Shown: one piece after another, positions 26,147-41,670 of the stretch
How positions within the stretch are numbered: the stretch's first letter is position 1
How the letters are laid out: each line of letters begins with the position of its first letter
From: Chloroflexi bacterium CFX6
Lineage (GTDB): Bacteria; Chloroflexota; Anaerolineae; Anaerolineales; Villigracilaceae
Assembly (NCBI GenBank): GCA_030263595.1
Contig: SZPG01000018.1
Coordinates: 1-64,000, forward strand
Length of the DNA stretch: 64,000 bases
Reading direction: 5' to 3'
Program-made: the position numbers and the translations under genes
The notes under the pieces: generated by a model
The model's database searches: none
Seen by the model: only the letters and a program-made list of their open reading frames with translations
What the model was told of the DNA's origin: nothing

Positions 26147-26182
26147 CCCCTCTCCCAATGGGAGAGGGGATTCTTTTTTTTC
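26147..26182 (+). terminator. Rho-independent terminator built from a dispersed repeat
   Basis: CCCCTCTCCC-aat-GGGAGAGGGG followed by a T-rich run (ttcttttttttcc), 13 bases after the oxidoreductase stop. The hairpin is a member of the ctctccc/gggagag family that also fills the arrays inside metH. Confidence 0.75.
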
Positions 26183-37455: not shown

Positions 37456-40400
37456 ATGACCAATCGCAAATATACCAACCGCCGTTACCTCGACGCCCTT
37501 GAAAAGAAAGTCCTCGTCTTCGATGGCGCGATGGGAACGAGCCTGCAAGTCCAAAACCTCACTGCTGAATATTTCGGCGGCGAGCAATACAATGGCTGCA
37601 ACGACTACCTCGTCATCTCATATCCCGAAGCCGTGGAAAAAGTTCATCGTTCGTTCCTCGAAGTCGGCGTGGACGTACTCGAGACGGACACCTTCCGTTC
37701 GAATCGCATCACGATGCAGGAATACGGGCTGCAGGATAGAGTCATCGAAATCAATGAAACAGCCGCGAGACTCGCGCGAAGGCTGGCGGATGAATATTCG
37801 GTAAGGACAGGGCTTGCCCCTGTCCCACCAGCAGGGCGACTGCAAGAGTCGCCCCAACAGCGCTTCGTCGCTGGTTCCATCGGTCCCTCGGGCAAGCTCC
37901 CCTCCACCAACGACCCCGAACTCTCCAATGTCAGCTTCGATGAATTAGTTGACGTGTTTCGCGAGCAAGCCGTTGGATTGATCAAAGGTGGCGTTGACCT
38001 CCTCCTCATCGAAACCTCGCAGGATATTCTCGAAGTCAAAGCAGCCATCCTCGGCTGTCACAAAGCCATGGACGAGACTCAAGTCTGGTTGCCGATTCAG
38101 GCTCAGGTCACGCTCGACACGACCGGTCGCATGTTGCTCGGCACCGACGTCAACGCCGCGCTTGCCATTCTCGAAGGTCTCGGCATTGACGTCATCGGTC
38201 TCAACTGTTCCACCGGACCCGAGCACATGCGCGAGCCCATTCGCATCCTCGGCGAAAATTCCACGCTGCCCGTTTCGTGCATCCCCAACGCGGGACTTCC
38301 ATTGAACGTTGATGGACAAGCGGTTTACCCGCTTGAACCCGAACCGTTCGCCAATGACCTCTATGAGTTCGTGACGAAACACAACATCTCGATTGTCGGC
38401 GGATGCTGTGGGACGACTCCCGCACACCTCAAACTTTTGGTGGACAAACTGAACGGGACTTCCCACCCGCCCCGCCCGCTTCGCTCCACGCCCCGGCTTG
38501 CCTCCGCCATGTCAGCCATTGCCATGCGACAGGACCCTCCGCCAACCCTTCTCGGCGAACGACTCAACGCGCAAGGCTCGCGCAAGTTCAAGAAGATGCT
38601 GCTCGAAGAGGATTACGACGGCATTTTGGAATTGGCGCGCGAACAAGTGGACGGCGGCGCGCACGCCCTCGACATCTCCTGCGCGGTGACTGAACGCCCC
38701 GATGAAGCCGAACTCATGCGCAAGGTCGTCAAGAAACTCGAGATGGGCGTGGATGTGCCATTGGTGATTGACACGACCGAACTCGACGTACTCGAAATCG
38801 CGCTCAAGACCGCGCCTGGACGATGTTTGATTAACTCAACGCATCTCGAAGCAGGTCGCGCCAAAGCGGACAAGGTCTTCGCGCTCGCAAAAGAACACAA
38901 TGCCGCTGTGATTGTTTTGACAATTGATGAAGGTGGCATGGCAAAGACCCGCGAGAAAAAACTCGAAGTCGCGAAAAGAATTTACGATATTGCTGTCAAT
39001 GAACATGGCTTGAAGCCCGAAGATTTGGTCTACGACGCGCTGACCTTCACCCTCGCAACGGGCGACGAAGAATTTGCCAACTCCGCCATCGAAACCATCG
39101 AAGGGATTCGGCTCATCAAACAGAATTTGCCCGGTGTGATGGCATCGCTCGGCGTGAGCAACCTGTCGTTCGGTCTCGCGCCGCACGCGCGACCCGTCCT
39201 GAACTCGGTCATGCTCTATCACTGCATGGAGGCGGGACTTGACATGGCGATCGTCAACGCCGCGCACATCAAGCCCTACGCCGAGATTGACGAGAAGGAA
39301 CGCGAACTCGCCGAAGACCTCATCTTCAACCGCCGCGCCGACGCGTTGCAACGCTACATCGAACATTATGAATCCGTAGGGGCGGATCTCGCATCCGCCC
39401 ATGCCCTCGCCGATCCCACCGAAGGCATGACCCCCGAACAACGCCTGCATTGGAAGATCGTGCATCGCCACAAAGAAGGCGTGGAGGCGGATATTGATGA
39501 GATCATCGCGCGCTCCCTCACCCCTACGCCTTCGGCAGCCTCTCCCGAAGGGAGAGGGGGACTCCCTTCCCCCCTCGGGGGAAGGGCTGGGGATGAGGGC
39601 GAATTCCCTCTCCCCGCGGGAGAGGGTCAGGGTGAGGGAAAACCGCGCAAGTACAACCCTCGCCTCCCCGAAGAACTCAAAGCCCGTATTCGCGAATTGC
39701 GCCAAAATTCCACAGAAGCAGAACAACTCCTGTGGAAAATCTTGCGTAATCGCGGAGTCCACAACACGAAATTCCGCCGCCAACATCCGCTTGCCAGTTT
39801 TATCCTCGATTTCTATTGTCACGAAGCCAGACTTTGTGTTGAGTTGGATGGAAGCCAGCACGCGAAAGGCGAACAAGTTCAATACGATGAGGAGCGTACC
39901 AAAATTTTACGGGAGCAACATGATGTGCGAGTCATTCGCTTCTGGAATGATGACGTACTCAATAAAACAGAGGAGGTCGTCGGTGAGATATGGAATGCAC
40001 TCGACGCGCGACTCGCTCCCTCACCCCTAGCCCCTCTCCCGAAGGGAGAGGGGGACTCCCTTCCCCCCGCGGGGGAAGGGTTGGGGATGAGGGGAGACTC
40101 CCTTTCCCTTCGGGAGAGGGTTGGAGTGAGGGCGGACTCCCCTCTCCCCGCGGGAGAGGGGTCGGGGGTGAGGGTTAGCCAACACGAAATCGCCGTTCAC
40201 ACCCTCAACAACGTCCTCCTCCCCGCCATGAAAGAAGTTGGCGACAAGTTCGGCGCGGGCGAATTGATTTTGCCGTTCGTTCTGCAATCCGCCGAAGTGA
40301 TGAAGAAGACCGTCGCTCATCTCGAAAATTATCTTGAGAAGAAAGAAGGCGTCAGCAAGGGAACTGTCGTCATTGCCACCGTCTACGGCGACGTGCATGA

Positions 40401-41670
40401 CATCGGCAAGAACCTCGTCAAAACGATTCTCTCCAACAACGGCTACGACGTGATTGACCTCGGCAAGCAGGTTCCTGCGGAGACGATCATCACCAAAGCC
40501 GTCGAAGTCAACGCGACTGCAATTGGATTGAGCGCGTTGCTGGTTTCGACATCCAAGCAAATGCCGTTGATCGTGAATGAGTTACATCGCCGCGGACTCG
40601 AATTCCCGGTGCTTGTGGGCGGCGCGGCGATCAATCGTCGTTTTGGCAGGAGAATTTTATTTACCGAGGACGGCAACATCCACGAACCCGGAGTCTTCTA
40701 CTGCAAGGACGCATTCGAGGGACTCGAAACGATGGATCAACTCATCGTCCCTGAGAAGCGCGAAGAACTGCTGGCGCGCGTCCGCCGCGAGGGCGAGGTC
40801 GAAATGGGACGCGCCTCTCAGATTCCCGAACATCGAAAAACGGCGACCCGTTCCTCGCAGATCCAGCCTGAGCCGATCAATCATCCATTGAAGTGGGGTC
40901 AGCGCATCGTAAAGGATATGCCGCTGGAGATCGTTTTGAAGCATCTCAGTTTCAACGAACTGTATCGCCTGTCGTGGGGCGCGAAGAACGCGCACGGCGA
41001 AGAGTGGGAAAGACTCAAAGCCGAATTCGATGAACGGTTGGCGCGCATGAGCAGGGAAGCGATTCGCGAAGGCTGGCTCAAGCCGCAGGGCGTGTACGGC
41101 TACTTCCCCTGCCAATCGGACGGAGACGATTTGATCATCTACGACCCCGCGACGATTGACACCGCCTCCCCCGACGAGTTGACGCGTCTCACTTTTCCGC
41201 GTCAGCCGCACGACGACCATCTCGCGCTGTCCGATTACTTTGCTCCGGTCGATTCGGGCAAGTTGGATGTCGTTGCATTTCAAGTAGTCACTGTCGGGCA
41301 GGAAGCCACAGAGCGCTTCGACAGACTCCAGTCCGCGCACGATTACACCGAAGCCTACTTCACGCACGGACTCGGAGTTCAGACGGCTGAGGCAACCGCG
41401 AACTATCTCCACGAACACATCCGCCGCGAACTGGGCATTCCCGAAAATCAAGGCAAGCGCTATTCGTGGGGTTATCCCGCCATTCCCGAGCTCGAAGACC
41501 ATAAGAAAGTATTCGAGTTATTGCCCGCTGTGACAACTGAACTCGGCATGAGTCTGAGCCCGGCGTATCAGTTGATCCCCGAACAATCCACCGCCGCGAT
41601 CCTCCTGCATCACAAGGACGCCAAGTATTACAGCGTCGGCGAATCGAGGGTCGAGCAGTTGATGAGGTAA
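37456..41670 (+). CDS. metH: Cobalamin-dependent methionine synthase with in-frame insertions
   Basis: B12-dependent methionine synthase, 1404 residues. Homocysteine domain about 1-335 (FDGAMGTSLQ, GLNCSTGP, zinc site GGCCGTTPAH); pterin domain about 365-640 (GERLNAQGSRKFK, DISCAVTERPDE); cap and B12 domain about 909-1110 (VGDKFGAGELILPFVLQSAEVMKK, GDVHDIGKNLV with axial His981); divergent activation domain to the C-terminus. Three foreign in-frame blocks: ~115-136 from two palindromes, ~640-650 from one palindrome, and ~686-908, a DUF559 nuclease-like domain flanked by repeat arrays. All lie in linkers, so catalysis may survive. AGGAG precedes the ATG by ten bases. The reading frame is uninterrupted. 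Next gene is a second homocysteine methyltransferase. Confidence 0.93.
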   Translation: MTNRKYTNRRYLDALEKKVLVFDGAMGTSLQVQNLTAEYFGGEQYNGCNDYLVISYPEAVEKVHRSFLEVGVDVLETDTFRSNRITMQEYGLQDRVIEINETAARLARRLADEYSVRTGLAPVPPAGRLQESPQQRFVAGSIGPSGKLPSTNDPELSNVSFDELVDVFREQAVGLIKGGVDLLLIETSQDILEVKAAILGCHKAMDETQVWLPIQAQVTLDTTGRMLLGTDVNAALAILEGLGIDVIGLNCSTGPEHMREPIRILGENSTLPVSCIPNAGLPLNVDGQAVYPLEPEPFANDLYEFVTKHNISIVGGCCGTTPAHLKLLVDKLNGTSHPPRPLRSTPRLASAMSAIAMRQDPPPTLLGERLNAQGSRKFKKMLLEEDYDGILELAREQVDGGAHALDISCAVTERPDEAELMRKVVKKLEMGVDVPLVIDTTELDVLEIALKTAPGRCLINSTHLEAGRAKADKVFALAKEHNAAVIVLTIDEGGMAKTREKKLEVAKRIYDIAVNEHGLKPEDLVYDALTFTLATGDEEFANSAIETIEGIRLIKQNLPGVMASLGVSNLSFGLAPHARPVLNSVMLYHCMEAGLDMAIVNAAHIKPYAEIDEKERELAEDLIFNRRADALQRYIEHYESVGADLASAHALADPTEGMTPEQRLHWKIVHRHKEGVEADIDEIIARSLTPTPSAASPEGRGGLPSPLGGRAGDEGEFPLPAGEGQGEGKPRKYNPRLPEELKARIRELRQNSTEAEQLLWKILRNRGVHNTKFRRQHPLASFILDFYCHEARLCVELDGSQHAKGEQVQYDEERTKILREQHDVRVIRFWNDDVLNKTEEVVGEIWNALDARLAPSPLAPLPKGEGDSLPPAGEGLGMRGDSLSLRERVGVRADSPLPAGEGSGVRVSQHEIAVHTLNNVLLPAMKEVGDKFGAGELILPFVLQSAEVMKKTVAHLENYLEKKEGVSKGTVVIATVYGDVHDIGKNLVKTILSNNGYDVIDLGKQVPAETIITKAVEVNATAIGLSALLVSTSKQMPLIVNELHRRGLEFPVLVGGAAINRRFGRRILFTEDGNIHEPGVFYCKDAFEGLETMDQLIVPEKREELLARVRREGEVEMGRASQIPEHRKTATRSSQIQPEPINHPLKWGQRIVKDMPLEIVLKHLSFNELYRLSWGAKNAHGEEWERLKAEFDERLARMSREAIREGWLKPQGVYGYFPCQSDGDDLIIYDPATIDTASPDELTRLTFPRQPHDDHLALSDYFAPVDSGKLDVVAFQVVTVGQEATERFDRLQSAHDYTEAYFTHGLGVQTAEATANYLHEHIRRELGIPENQGKRYSWGYPAIPELEDHKKVFELLPAVTTELGMSLSPAYQLIPEQSTAAILLHHKDAKYYSVGESRVEQLMR
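37805..37854. repeat. Two palindromes inside metH
   Basis: ggacaggg-cttgc-ccctgtcc (37805-37825) and gggcgact-gcaag-agtcgccc (37834-37854). They encode about residues 115-136 (RTGLAPVPPAGRLQESPQ), which have no counterpart between RRLADEY and FVAGSIGPS of ordinary MetH proteins. Confidence 0.75.
39380..39400. repeat. Palindrome inside metH
   Basis: gggcggat-ctcgc-atccgccc, in frame, encoding GADLASAH near residues 642-648 after the pterin-binding domain. Confidence 0.7.
39511..40178 (+). mobile_element. Repeat-flanked DUF559 nuclease-like element inside metH
   Basis: Composite of a left repeat array (39511-39640), a DUF559 domain (39641-40012) and a right array (40013-40178). Both arrays begin with cgctccctcacccct and consist of hairpins of the types ctctccc/gggagag and ttcccccc/ggggggaa. 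The domain has the family core NSTEAEQLLWKILRNRGVHNTKFRRQHPLASF, ILDFYC and VELDGSQH, which is the PD-(D/E)xK-like active site shared with Vsr-type endonucleases, then VRVIRFWNDDVL. All segments are open in the metH frame. Free-standing DUF559 genes are common; one carried within MetH is unusual. Whether the nuclease is active or mobile is inference. Confidence 0.75.

Follow-up and report, generated by a model that had tools for sequence, protein, structure and literature searches.

The gene for cobalamin-dependent methionine synthase (metH) in Chloroflexi bacterium CFX6 contains an in-frame insert in which a DUF559 nuclease domain is bracketed by two palindromic arrays. Our preferred reading, to which we give a probability of about 0.68, is that a selfish element of homing type is carried here as a translated, unspliced insertion; cleavage and homing are inferred, and neither was observed. 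The window, meaning the whole stretch of DNA analysed, is 64,000 nucleotides long, and the relevant features are collected in Table 1.

The metH frame remains open across the insert, as an earlier note made from the sequence alone had reported. TIGR02082 (metH) scored above its cut-off on the product, with the match split in two stretches. Alignment with the Thermus-type methionine synthase 8g3h paired query residues 10–686 with chain residues 40–689, and query residues 916–1394 with chain residues 695–1177, leaving approximately 229 query residues against 5 in 8g3h at the linker between the folate and cap domains. This gap agrees with the location given in the note, between the pterin domain and the B12 cap. 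The extent given there (39511–40178, 224 codons) was right in size, but the limits are better drawn at 39514–40176, or roughly 221 codons; the preceding residues are EIIAR and the following residues SQHEIAV. The internal order is a hairpin array, an intact DUF559 domain and a second hairpin array. The note had described this plan with a complete domain, and indeed the match covers positions 3–108 of the 109 in the DUF559 profile and arrays stand on both sides. Its statement that both arrays open with one common word is also correct, except that the word has 16 bases (CGCTCCCTCACCCCTA) rather than 15. DNA alignment of occupied and empty pairs gave no clean base-exact borders, and we therefore claim no target-site duplication.

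Table 1. Features of the metH insert and related repeats (window positions)
Feature	Position	Strand	Basis or remark
Host gene metH (cobalamin-dependent methionine synthase)	37456..41670	+	single ORF through insert, 1404 codons
Whole in-frame insert, about 221 codons	39514..40176	+	linker between pterin-binding domain and B12 cap; empty relatives and gap against solved MetH
First palindromic array (SLTPTPSAASPEGRGGLPSPLGGRAGDEGEFPLPAGEGQGEG)	39514..39639	+	repeats, ssDNA folding, palindrome count
DUF559 EDxHD-type nuclease domain with lead-in	39640..40017	+	Pfam match 39676–40002
Second palindromic array (PSPLAPLPKGEGDSLPPAGEGLGMRGDSLSLRERVGVRADSPLPAGEGSGVRV)	40018..40176	+	repeats, ssDNA folding, palindrome count
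16-base word CGCTCCCTCACCCCTA, start of array 1	39511..39526	+	
16-base word CGCTCCCTCACCCCTA, start of array 2	40014..40029	+	
Solitary copy of array palindrome, intergenic	26149..26167	+	14 bases past stop codon 26132–26134

The two arrays have a 100-nt stretch in common that is 88% identical (39539–39638 and 40033–40132). The palindrome CCTCTCCCNNNGGGAGAGG, allowing up to three mismatches, occurs six times in the window against an expectation of 0.27, and five of the six lie within the insert; folding of the arrays as single-stranded DNA gave z-scores of −4.2 and −5.0. The palindrome excess and the folding scores together rule out chance repeats. Genome-wide there are 93 copies of this type, compared with 3 for the reversed control. 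With in-frame palindromes in a coding gene (five in the arrays) and many genome copies (93), the insert satisfies one criterion for membership of the Rickettsia palindromic elements or intragenic REPs. The palindromes of the arrays are GC-rich; the encoded peptides are rich in Gly, Pro and Glu, and are probably disordered linkers. An AlphaFold2 model of a 741-residue MetH segment was poor (pLDDT 56), the arrays scoring lowest and having no secondary structure; this low-confidence prediction is consistent with arrays that act as flexible linkers. The solitary intergenic palindrome listed in Table 1 is followed by a run of T and may have a terminator role.

The nuclease domain matches DUF559 (PF04480) over residues 741–849 (39676–40002) with 112.7 bits, where the Pfam cut-off is 20.6, and the only Pfam matches of the enclosed ORF are DUF559 and MTES_1575. 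Its AlphaFold2 model (pLDDT 88.6) resembles the DUF559 protein 3hrl (E 3e-7) and the homing endonuclease I-Bth0305I (catalytic domain, 3r3p; E 5e-4, TM 0.81 by target length), with a weak match to Vsr (1vsr). Residues E28, D57, E68, H74 and D83 are invariant across 49 diverse aligned copies. The predicted fold and these acidic and His residues are those required of an EDxHD or Vsr-like nuclease; the correspondence of active-site residues is inferred, without superposition. The dN/dS ratio is approximately 0.10 (median) for the metH copies, 0.095 for the hrpA copies and 0.084 for the valS copies, with synonymous sites mostly saturated, and on these estimates the nuclease is under purifying selection. 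The metH frame has no ATG from 39514 up to the nuclease domain. More generally, an ATG lies within 40 codons upstream of the domain core in only 3 of 24 metH copies, compared with 50 of 61 free-standing DUF559 genes. No separate DNA-binding region of the kind present in I-Bth0305I is obvious in the DUF559 unit.

We compared the metH site in 61 genomes, namely the source genome and 60 relatives. Empty sites in close relatives, which the earlier note had proposed as a check, do occur, and one and the same site is found in three forms. The empty form (for example EIINRGGFPTKHETAVHTLNN in G031) gives a protein reading EADIDEIINR-G(D/G)FP(T/S)KHETAVHTLNN across the site; the repeat-only form is present in G022 and G047; and the array-DUF559-array form is present in G000, G002, G006, G017, G021, G024, G028 and G042. 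Further occupied metH genes from named genomes belong to Anaerolineae-type Chloroflexota bins, the single exception being labelled Chloroflexus. Two scores are less certain: G023 (PPSPMTGEEGETLPPESGGAGGG), which may be a repeat remnant, was counted as unoccupied, and the repeat-only score of G026 depends on a peptide (PYPLPAGEK) that matches only weakly.

We scored 47 related metH genes, 23 as occupied and 24 as unoccupied. On a metH tree built from the flanks, with the insert excluded, the state changes 17 times, as many as with shuffled labels, so that occupancy shows no clustering. When a duplicate row is included (L015, a copy of L167, left out of the 47), there are 18 changes against a shuffled mean of 16.3, of which at least 13 are forced by well-supported branches. 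Without that row, restriction to contigs of at least 20 kb gives 11 changes against 10.8 for shuffled labels. The occupied gene of G002 is 97.6% identical to the empty gene of G015, and that of G017 is 96.4% identical to the empty gene of G011, a one-contig genome. An ancient fixed domain is ruled out by the 17 changes and by these near-identical genes that are empty. Fixation in all relatives, which the note had named as fatal to its reading, thus fails with 24 of the 47 genes unoccupied.

The history of the nuclease also differs from that of its host gene. The metH data reject the clades {L010,L014} and {L033,L168}, and the nuclease data reject {L010,L012,L158} and {L011,L168} (p-AU<1e-5 in each case), with lnL differences of 43 to 245 over the four tests. 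We note that the four clades were picked after the trees had been seen, that the lnL differences are large, and that about 128 columns underlie the nuclease tree. The Spearman correlation between host and nuclease distances is 0.37. Vertical descent with losses only is ruled out by the mutual rejections. From the two trees rejecting each other it follows that the insert has entered a single metH position repeatedly and without its flanks, and repeated flank-free entry at one site is the pattern expected of homing. The near-random occupancy and the tree conflict therefore indicate that the insert behaves like a homing parasite: it is present or absent at the same site in close relatives and independent of the flanks, as one criterion for membership of the homing endonucleases demands.

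The nuclease tree places all 24 metH copies in a single clade (support 100/100). Copies from an HMG-CoA reductase gene (L185) and a UvrD-like helicase gene (L198) are nested within it (support 100/98), and it follows that the unit changes genes. The valS, hsdM, bioF, intein and hrpA site 2 copies form one clade each, that of hrpA site 2 lying inside site 1. Judged by this tree, DUF559 lineages stay with one gene and switch gene occasionally.

Other copies were sought with a profile of these DUF559 domains and by whole-genome searches. A search for further array-DUF559-array units had been suggested in the note; the source genome has one complete unit only, but the same plan recurs in unrelated genes elsewhere. 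In-frame, repeat-bracketed DUF559 domains were found in valS (L099, L178, L192, L217), uvrA (L103, L104), hrpA at two sites (L176 and others; L202, L216, L221), bioF (L180, L227), hsdM (L183, L196, L211), HMG-CoA reductase (L185), a UvrD-like helicase (L198), a ygiQ-type radical SAM protein (L209), PIG-L (L101), APH (L105, at a contig end), an nSTAND1/FGE protein (L243), HsdR (L238), and many type IIG and other DNA methylases. The array-DUF559-array plan is present in many restriction-modification genes, and in several phyla. To be called in-gene, a copy had to be flanked on each side by an open frame of 130 residues or more; domain matches were checked for representatives only, and several of the restriction-modification labels were assigned by eye from flanking sequence. 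Host proteins matched solved HrpA, UvrA and BioF in two stretches, and a match to ValRS was also obtained. The valS site is occupied in four cases; in the others this same linker is empty or holds repeats only, and one genus includes both occupied and empty genomes. The idea of a mobile composite that tolerates translation and has a nuclease payload, put forward in the earlier note, gains support from the three forms of the metH site, the unrelated hosts and the conflicting trees.

Several further observations were made in these searches. DNA methylase and restriction-modification genes hold many in-frame DUF559 units (L102, L233, L235 and other methylase loci), and some of these loci contain other translated repeats distant from the nuclease. 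In the hrpA of Gallionellaceae-type bacteria the unit stands at two places (L202, L216 and L221 as against L176, L187 and L200). Clusters of partial DUF559 matches within a few kb, looking like decayed remnants, occur at G000:C133:55276-59242, G015:C2:497804-501169, G012:C6:2167-6228 and G019:C18:56595-60840.

The repeats belong together with the DUF559 nuclease. A motif-free test compared the 200 nt on either side of DUF559 with each other and found them alike in 55 of 71 in-gene copies, against 17 of 1921 control windows drawn from the same loci; for free-standing copies the figures were 26 of 55 and 0 of 1089. The GGGAGAGG palindrome had not been found at any free-standing DUF559 locus scanned for it, suggesting that repeats accompany in-gene copies only; this was overturned by the motif-free test, by which free-standing copies have palindromes of their own. 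These lie close to the start and end of the genes and differ by lineage (Acinetobacter, Geobacter, Anaerolineae). Genomes with GGGAGAGG-flanked DUF559 are richer in such palindromes than the other relatives (medians 73 and 6; Mann-Whitney p 5e-6, which is only rough because relatives are not independent).

The lineage-specific palindromes at free-standing genes and the palindrome-rich genomes, together with the repeat-only metH and valS sites, favour the chief alternative to homing. Here the palindromes are mobile units of REP or MITE type, DUF559 is their dedicated mobilising nuclease, much as RAYT transposases are presumed to be for REPs, and in-gene copies are tolerated landings, the metH hot spot being explained by arrays already present there. 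Any action of the nuclease on palindromes is untested. This explanation is the most serious of the alternatives, but we consider it unlikely, since the nuclease re-enters one exact metH site (and one in valS) contrary to host phylogeny, and many empty sites bear no trace of any repeat. The two explanations overlap and are largely compatible, the difference being the recognition target of the nuclease.

It might instead be argued that DUF559 serves the host as an accessory catalytic domain (in repair, or in restriction where the host is a restriction-modification gene) and has spread by ordinary domain shuffling. In favour of this are the many DNA methylases and restriction enzymes among the hosts and the strong purifying selection. 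We nevertheless regard this as very improbable: metH, valS, bioF, HMG-CoA reductase and ygiQ have no common pathway, occupancy in metH is no less scattered than under shuffled labels, genes of 97% identity may be occupied or empty, and the array-nuclease-array plan is recurrent.

Could the insert be removed after all, as an unrecognised intein or by RNA splicing? Intein models gave no match in metH, valS or hrpA, in keeping with the absence of intein splice motifs remarked on in the note; as a positive control, the same search placed TIGR01443 (intein C-terminus) above its cut-off in L240, L244 and L251. The splice signature Cys/Ser ... HN-Cys/Ser/Thr is missing at the boundaries of the metH insert. 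An Rfam covariance search found no group I or II intron, only hairpin-family matches far under the gathering scores. We reject an intein or intron on these two null searches, and in addition every complete metH copy keeps the frame, which RNA splicing does not require. The best argument for removal is that a related DUF559 lineage resides, by its sequence matches, in true inteins of DNA methylases (L240, L244, L251), and even so we would put splicing slightly below the accessory domain. With no intein match, no Rfam intron and arrays that resemble flexible linkers, our inference is that the nuclease remains part of the protein, although its persistence in mature MetH has not been shown. Intein-like inserts in DNA methylases whose nuclease is DUF559 were seen in L240, L241, L244 and L251 (four genomes of this class).

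Finally, an assembly or binning artefact, the other outcome that the note had held would refute it and one invited by repeats, by a sample made up mostly of metagenome bins and by several metH contigs that break off at the insert site, is hardly credible: many independent assemblies show the same structure, on contigs as long as 1.16 Mb (L164), one-contig genomes (G011, G025) have empty sites, and the substitution pattern is coding-like.

If the insert is a homing element, the nuclease would be produced within the host protein, nearly all metH copies being without their own ATG, and would cut the metH linker site of an empty allele. The cut would then be repaired off the occupied copy, via metH homology, which would put the cassette in frame. 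Loss would come about by recombination between the two similar arrays or by replacement with an empty allele, and the array-nuclease-array unit would rarely enter a new gene. Both the cutting of the empty site and the homing repair are inferred, and so are the activity of the host enzyme and the roles of the arrays. As the insertion lies in a flexible linker between domains, the host enzyme would keep working, and hence no intron or intein would be needed. Against homing, the exchange could be ordinary recombination that is not driven by the nuclease. We are evenly divided on a broader proposal, namely that the units form a separate class of splicing-free homing element, in which an EDxHD nuclease flanked by stop-free palindromes settles, in different phyla, where essential genes tolerate insertions and is passed on within the host protein. 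Host expression would replace the element's own promoter and start, and the palindromes would serve as peptide linkers and as recombination or cleavage ends.

Homing endonucleases in conserved genes are thought to survive through removal by an intron or intein, or to remain between genes. In the nrdA gene of a phage, the homing nuclease mobE lies in an essential gene without splicing, and the gene is broken into pieces; metH, in contrast, encodes one continuous fusion protein. A close likeness is to EDxHD homing endonucleases of the I-Bth0305I type, with which the unit shares the nuclease fold (TM 0.81 to 3r3p), the conserved E, D, H, D pattern, the patchy occupation of one conserved gene site, and a nuclease phylogeny independent of the host gene. 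I-Bth0305I is counted as a group I intron homing endonuclease and has an added DNA-binding region (PMC3943268). The metH unit differs in having no intron or intein, in being bracketed by palindromes, and in its in-frame fusion of the nuclease. Inteins with a homing endonuclease are similar in being in-frame insertions in conserved genes that spread by homing, which for the DUF559 unit is inferred; unlike them, the copies in metH, valS and hrpA have no splicing domain or motifs, and the metH unit sits in an inter-domain linker.

The likeness to Rickettsia palindromic elements drawn in the earlier note stands as regards in-frame palindromes; REP/RAYT systems are an equally good comparison, because free-standing DUF559 genes have their own palindromes. 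In these systems (REPtrons) a palindrome-flanked nuclease gene is likewise accompanied by solitary copies elsewhere in the genome. To our knowledge, RAYTs are not carried in frame within housekeeping genes. RAYTs are HuH tyrosine transposases (PMC2817692, PMC6006769), and among the Pfam matches of the enclosed ORF there is no HuH tyrosine transposase in the metH unit. Palindromes translated in frame within unrelated genes are known as Rickettsia palindromic elements and intragenic REPs (PMC10969869; PMC3733652, excinuclease genes included), described as short repeats that encode tens of residues (PMC10969869; PMC3733652). The arrays are alike in being translated palindromes, although no RPE or GTAG/CGTC REP sequences were compared; the metH unit differs in containing a nuclease, about 110 residues long and under selection, and in re-entering the same site. 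In-frame palindromes (PMC10969869, PMC3733652), EDxHD homing endonucleases (PMC3943268) and REP-associated transposases (PMC2817692) are thus already known separately. In the open-access literature, to which our search was limited, we found nothing that links DUF559 to repeats or to in-gene insertions. We place the metH unit among the homing elements; a separate class is possible, given proof of cutting and of persistence in the protein.

A homing-type nuclease seems to be retained permanently, and under selection, as an insert of MetH, ValRS, UvrA, HrpA and other proteins. If this is true, it represents a further route by which a selfish nuclease can inhabit essential genes, and it unites many odd DUF559 annotations and GC-rich repeats as one system. 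The DUF559 insertions would also be a natural catalogue of insertion-tolerant places in essential proteins, and the need for splicing in homing into coding genes would become directly testable.

Two smaller in-frame features occur in the same metH gene. A second stretch, SVRTGLAPVPPAGRLQESPQQR at 37802–37862, is missing from solved MetH; its core GGGCTTGCCCCTGTCC has 13 copies in the genome at no more than one mismatch, against 0 for the reversed control. Shortly 5' of the insert, the palindrome GGGGCGGATCTCGCATCCGCCC at 39379–39400 is translated as VGADLASAH and has one other close copy in the genome, at C54:35620.
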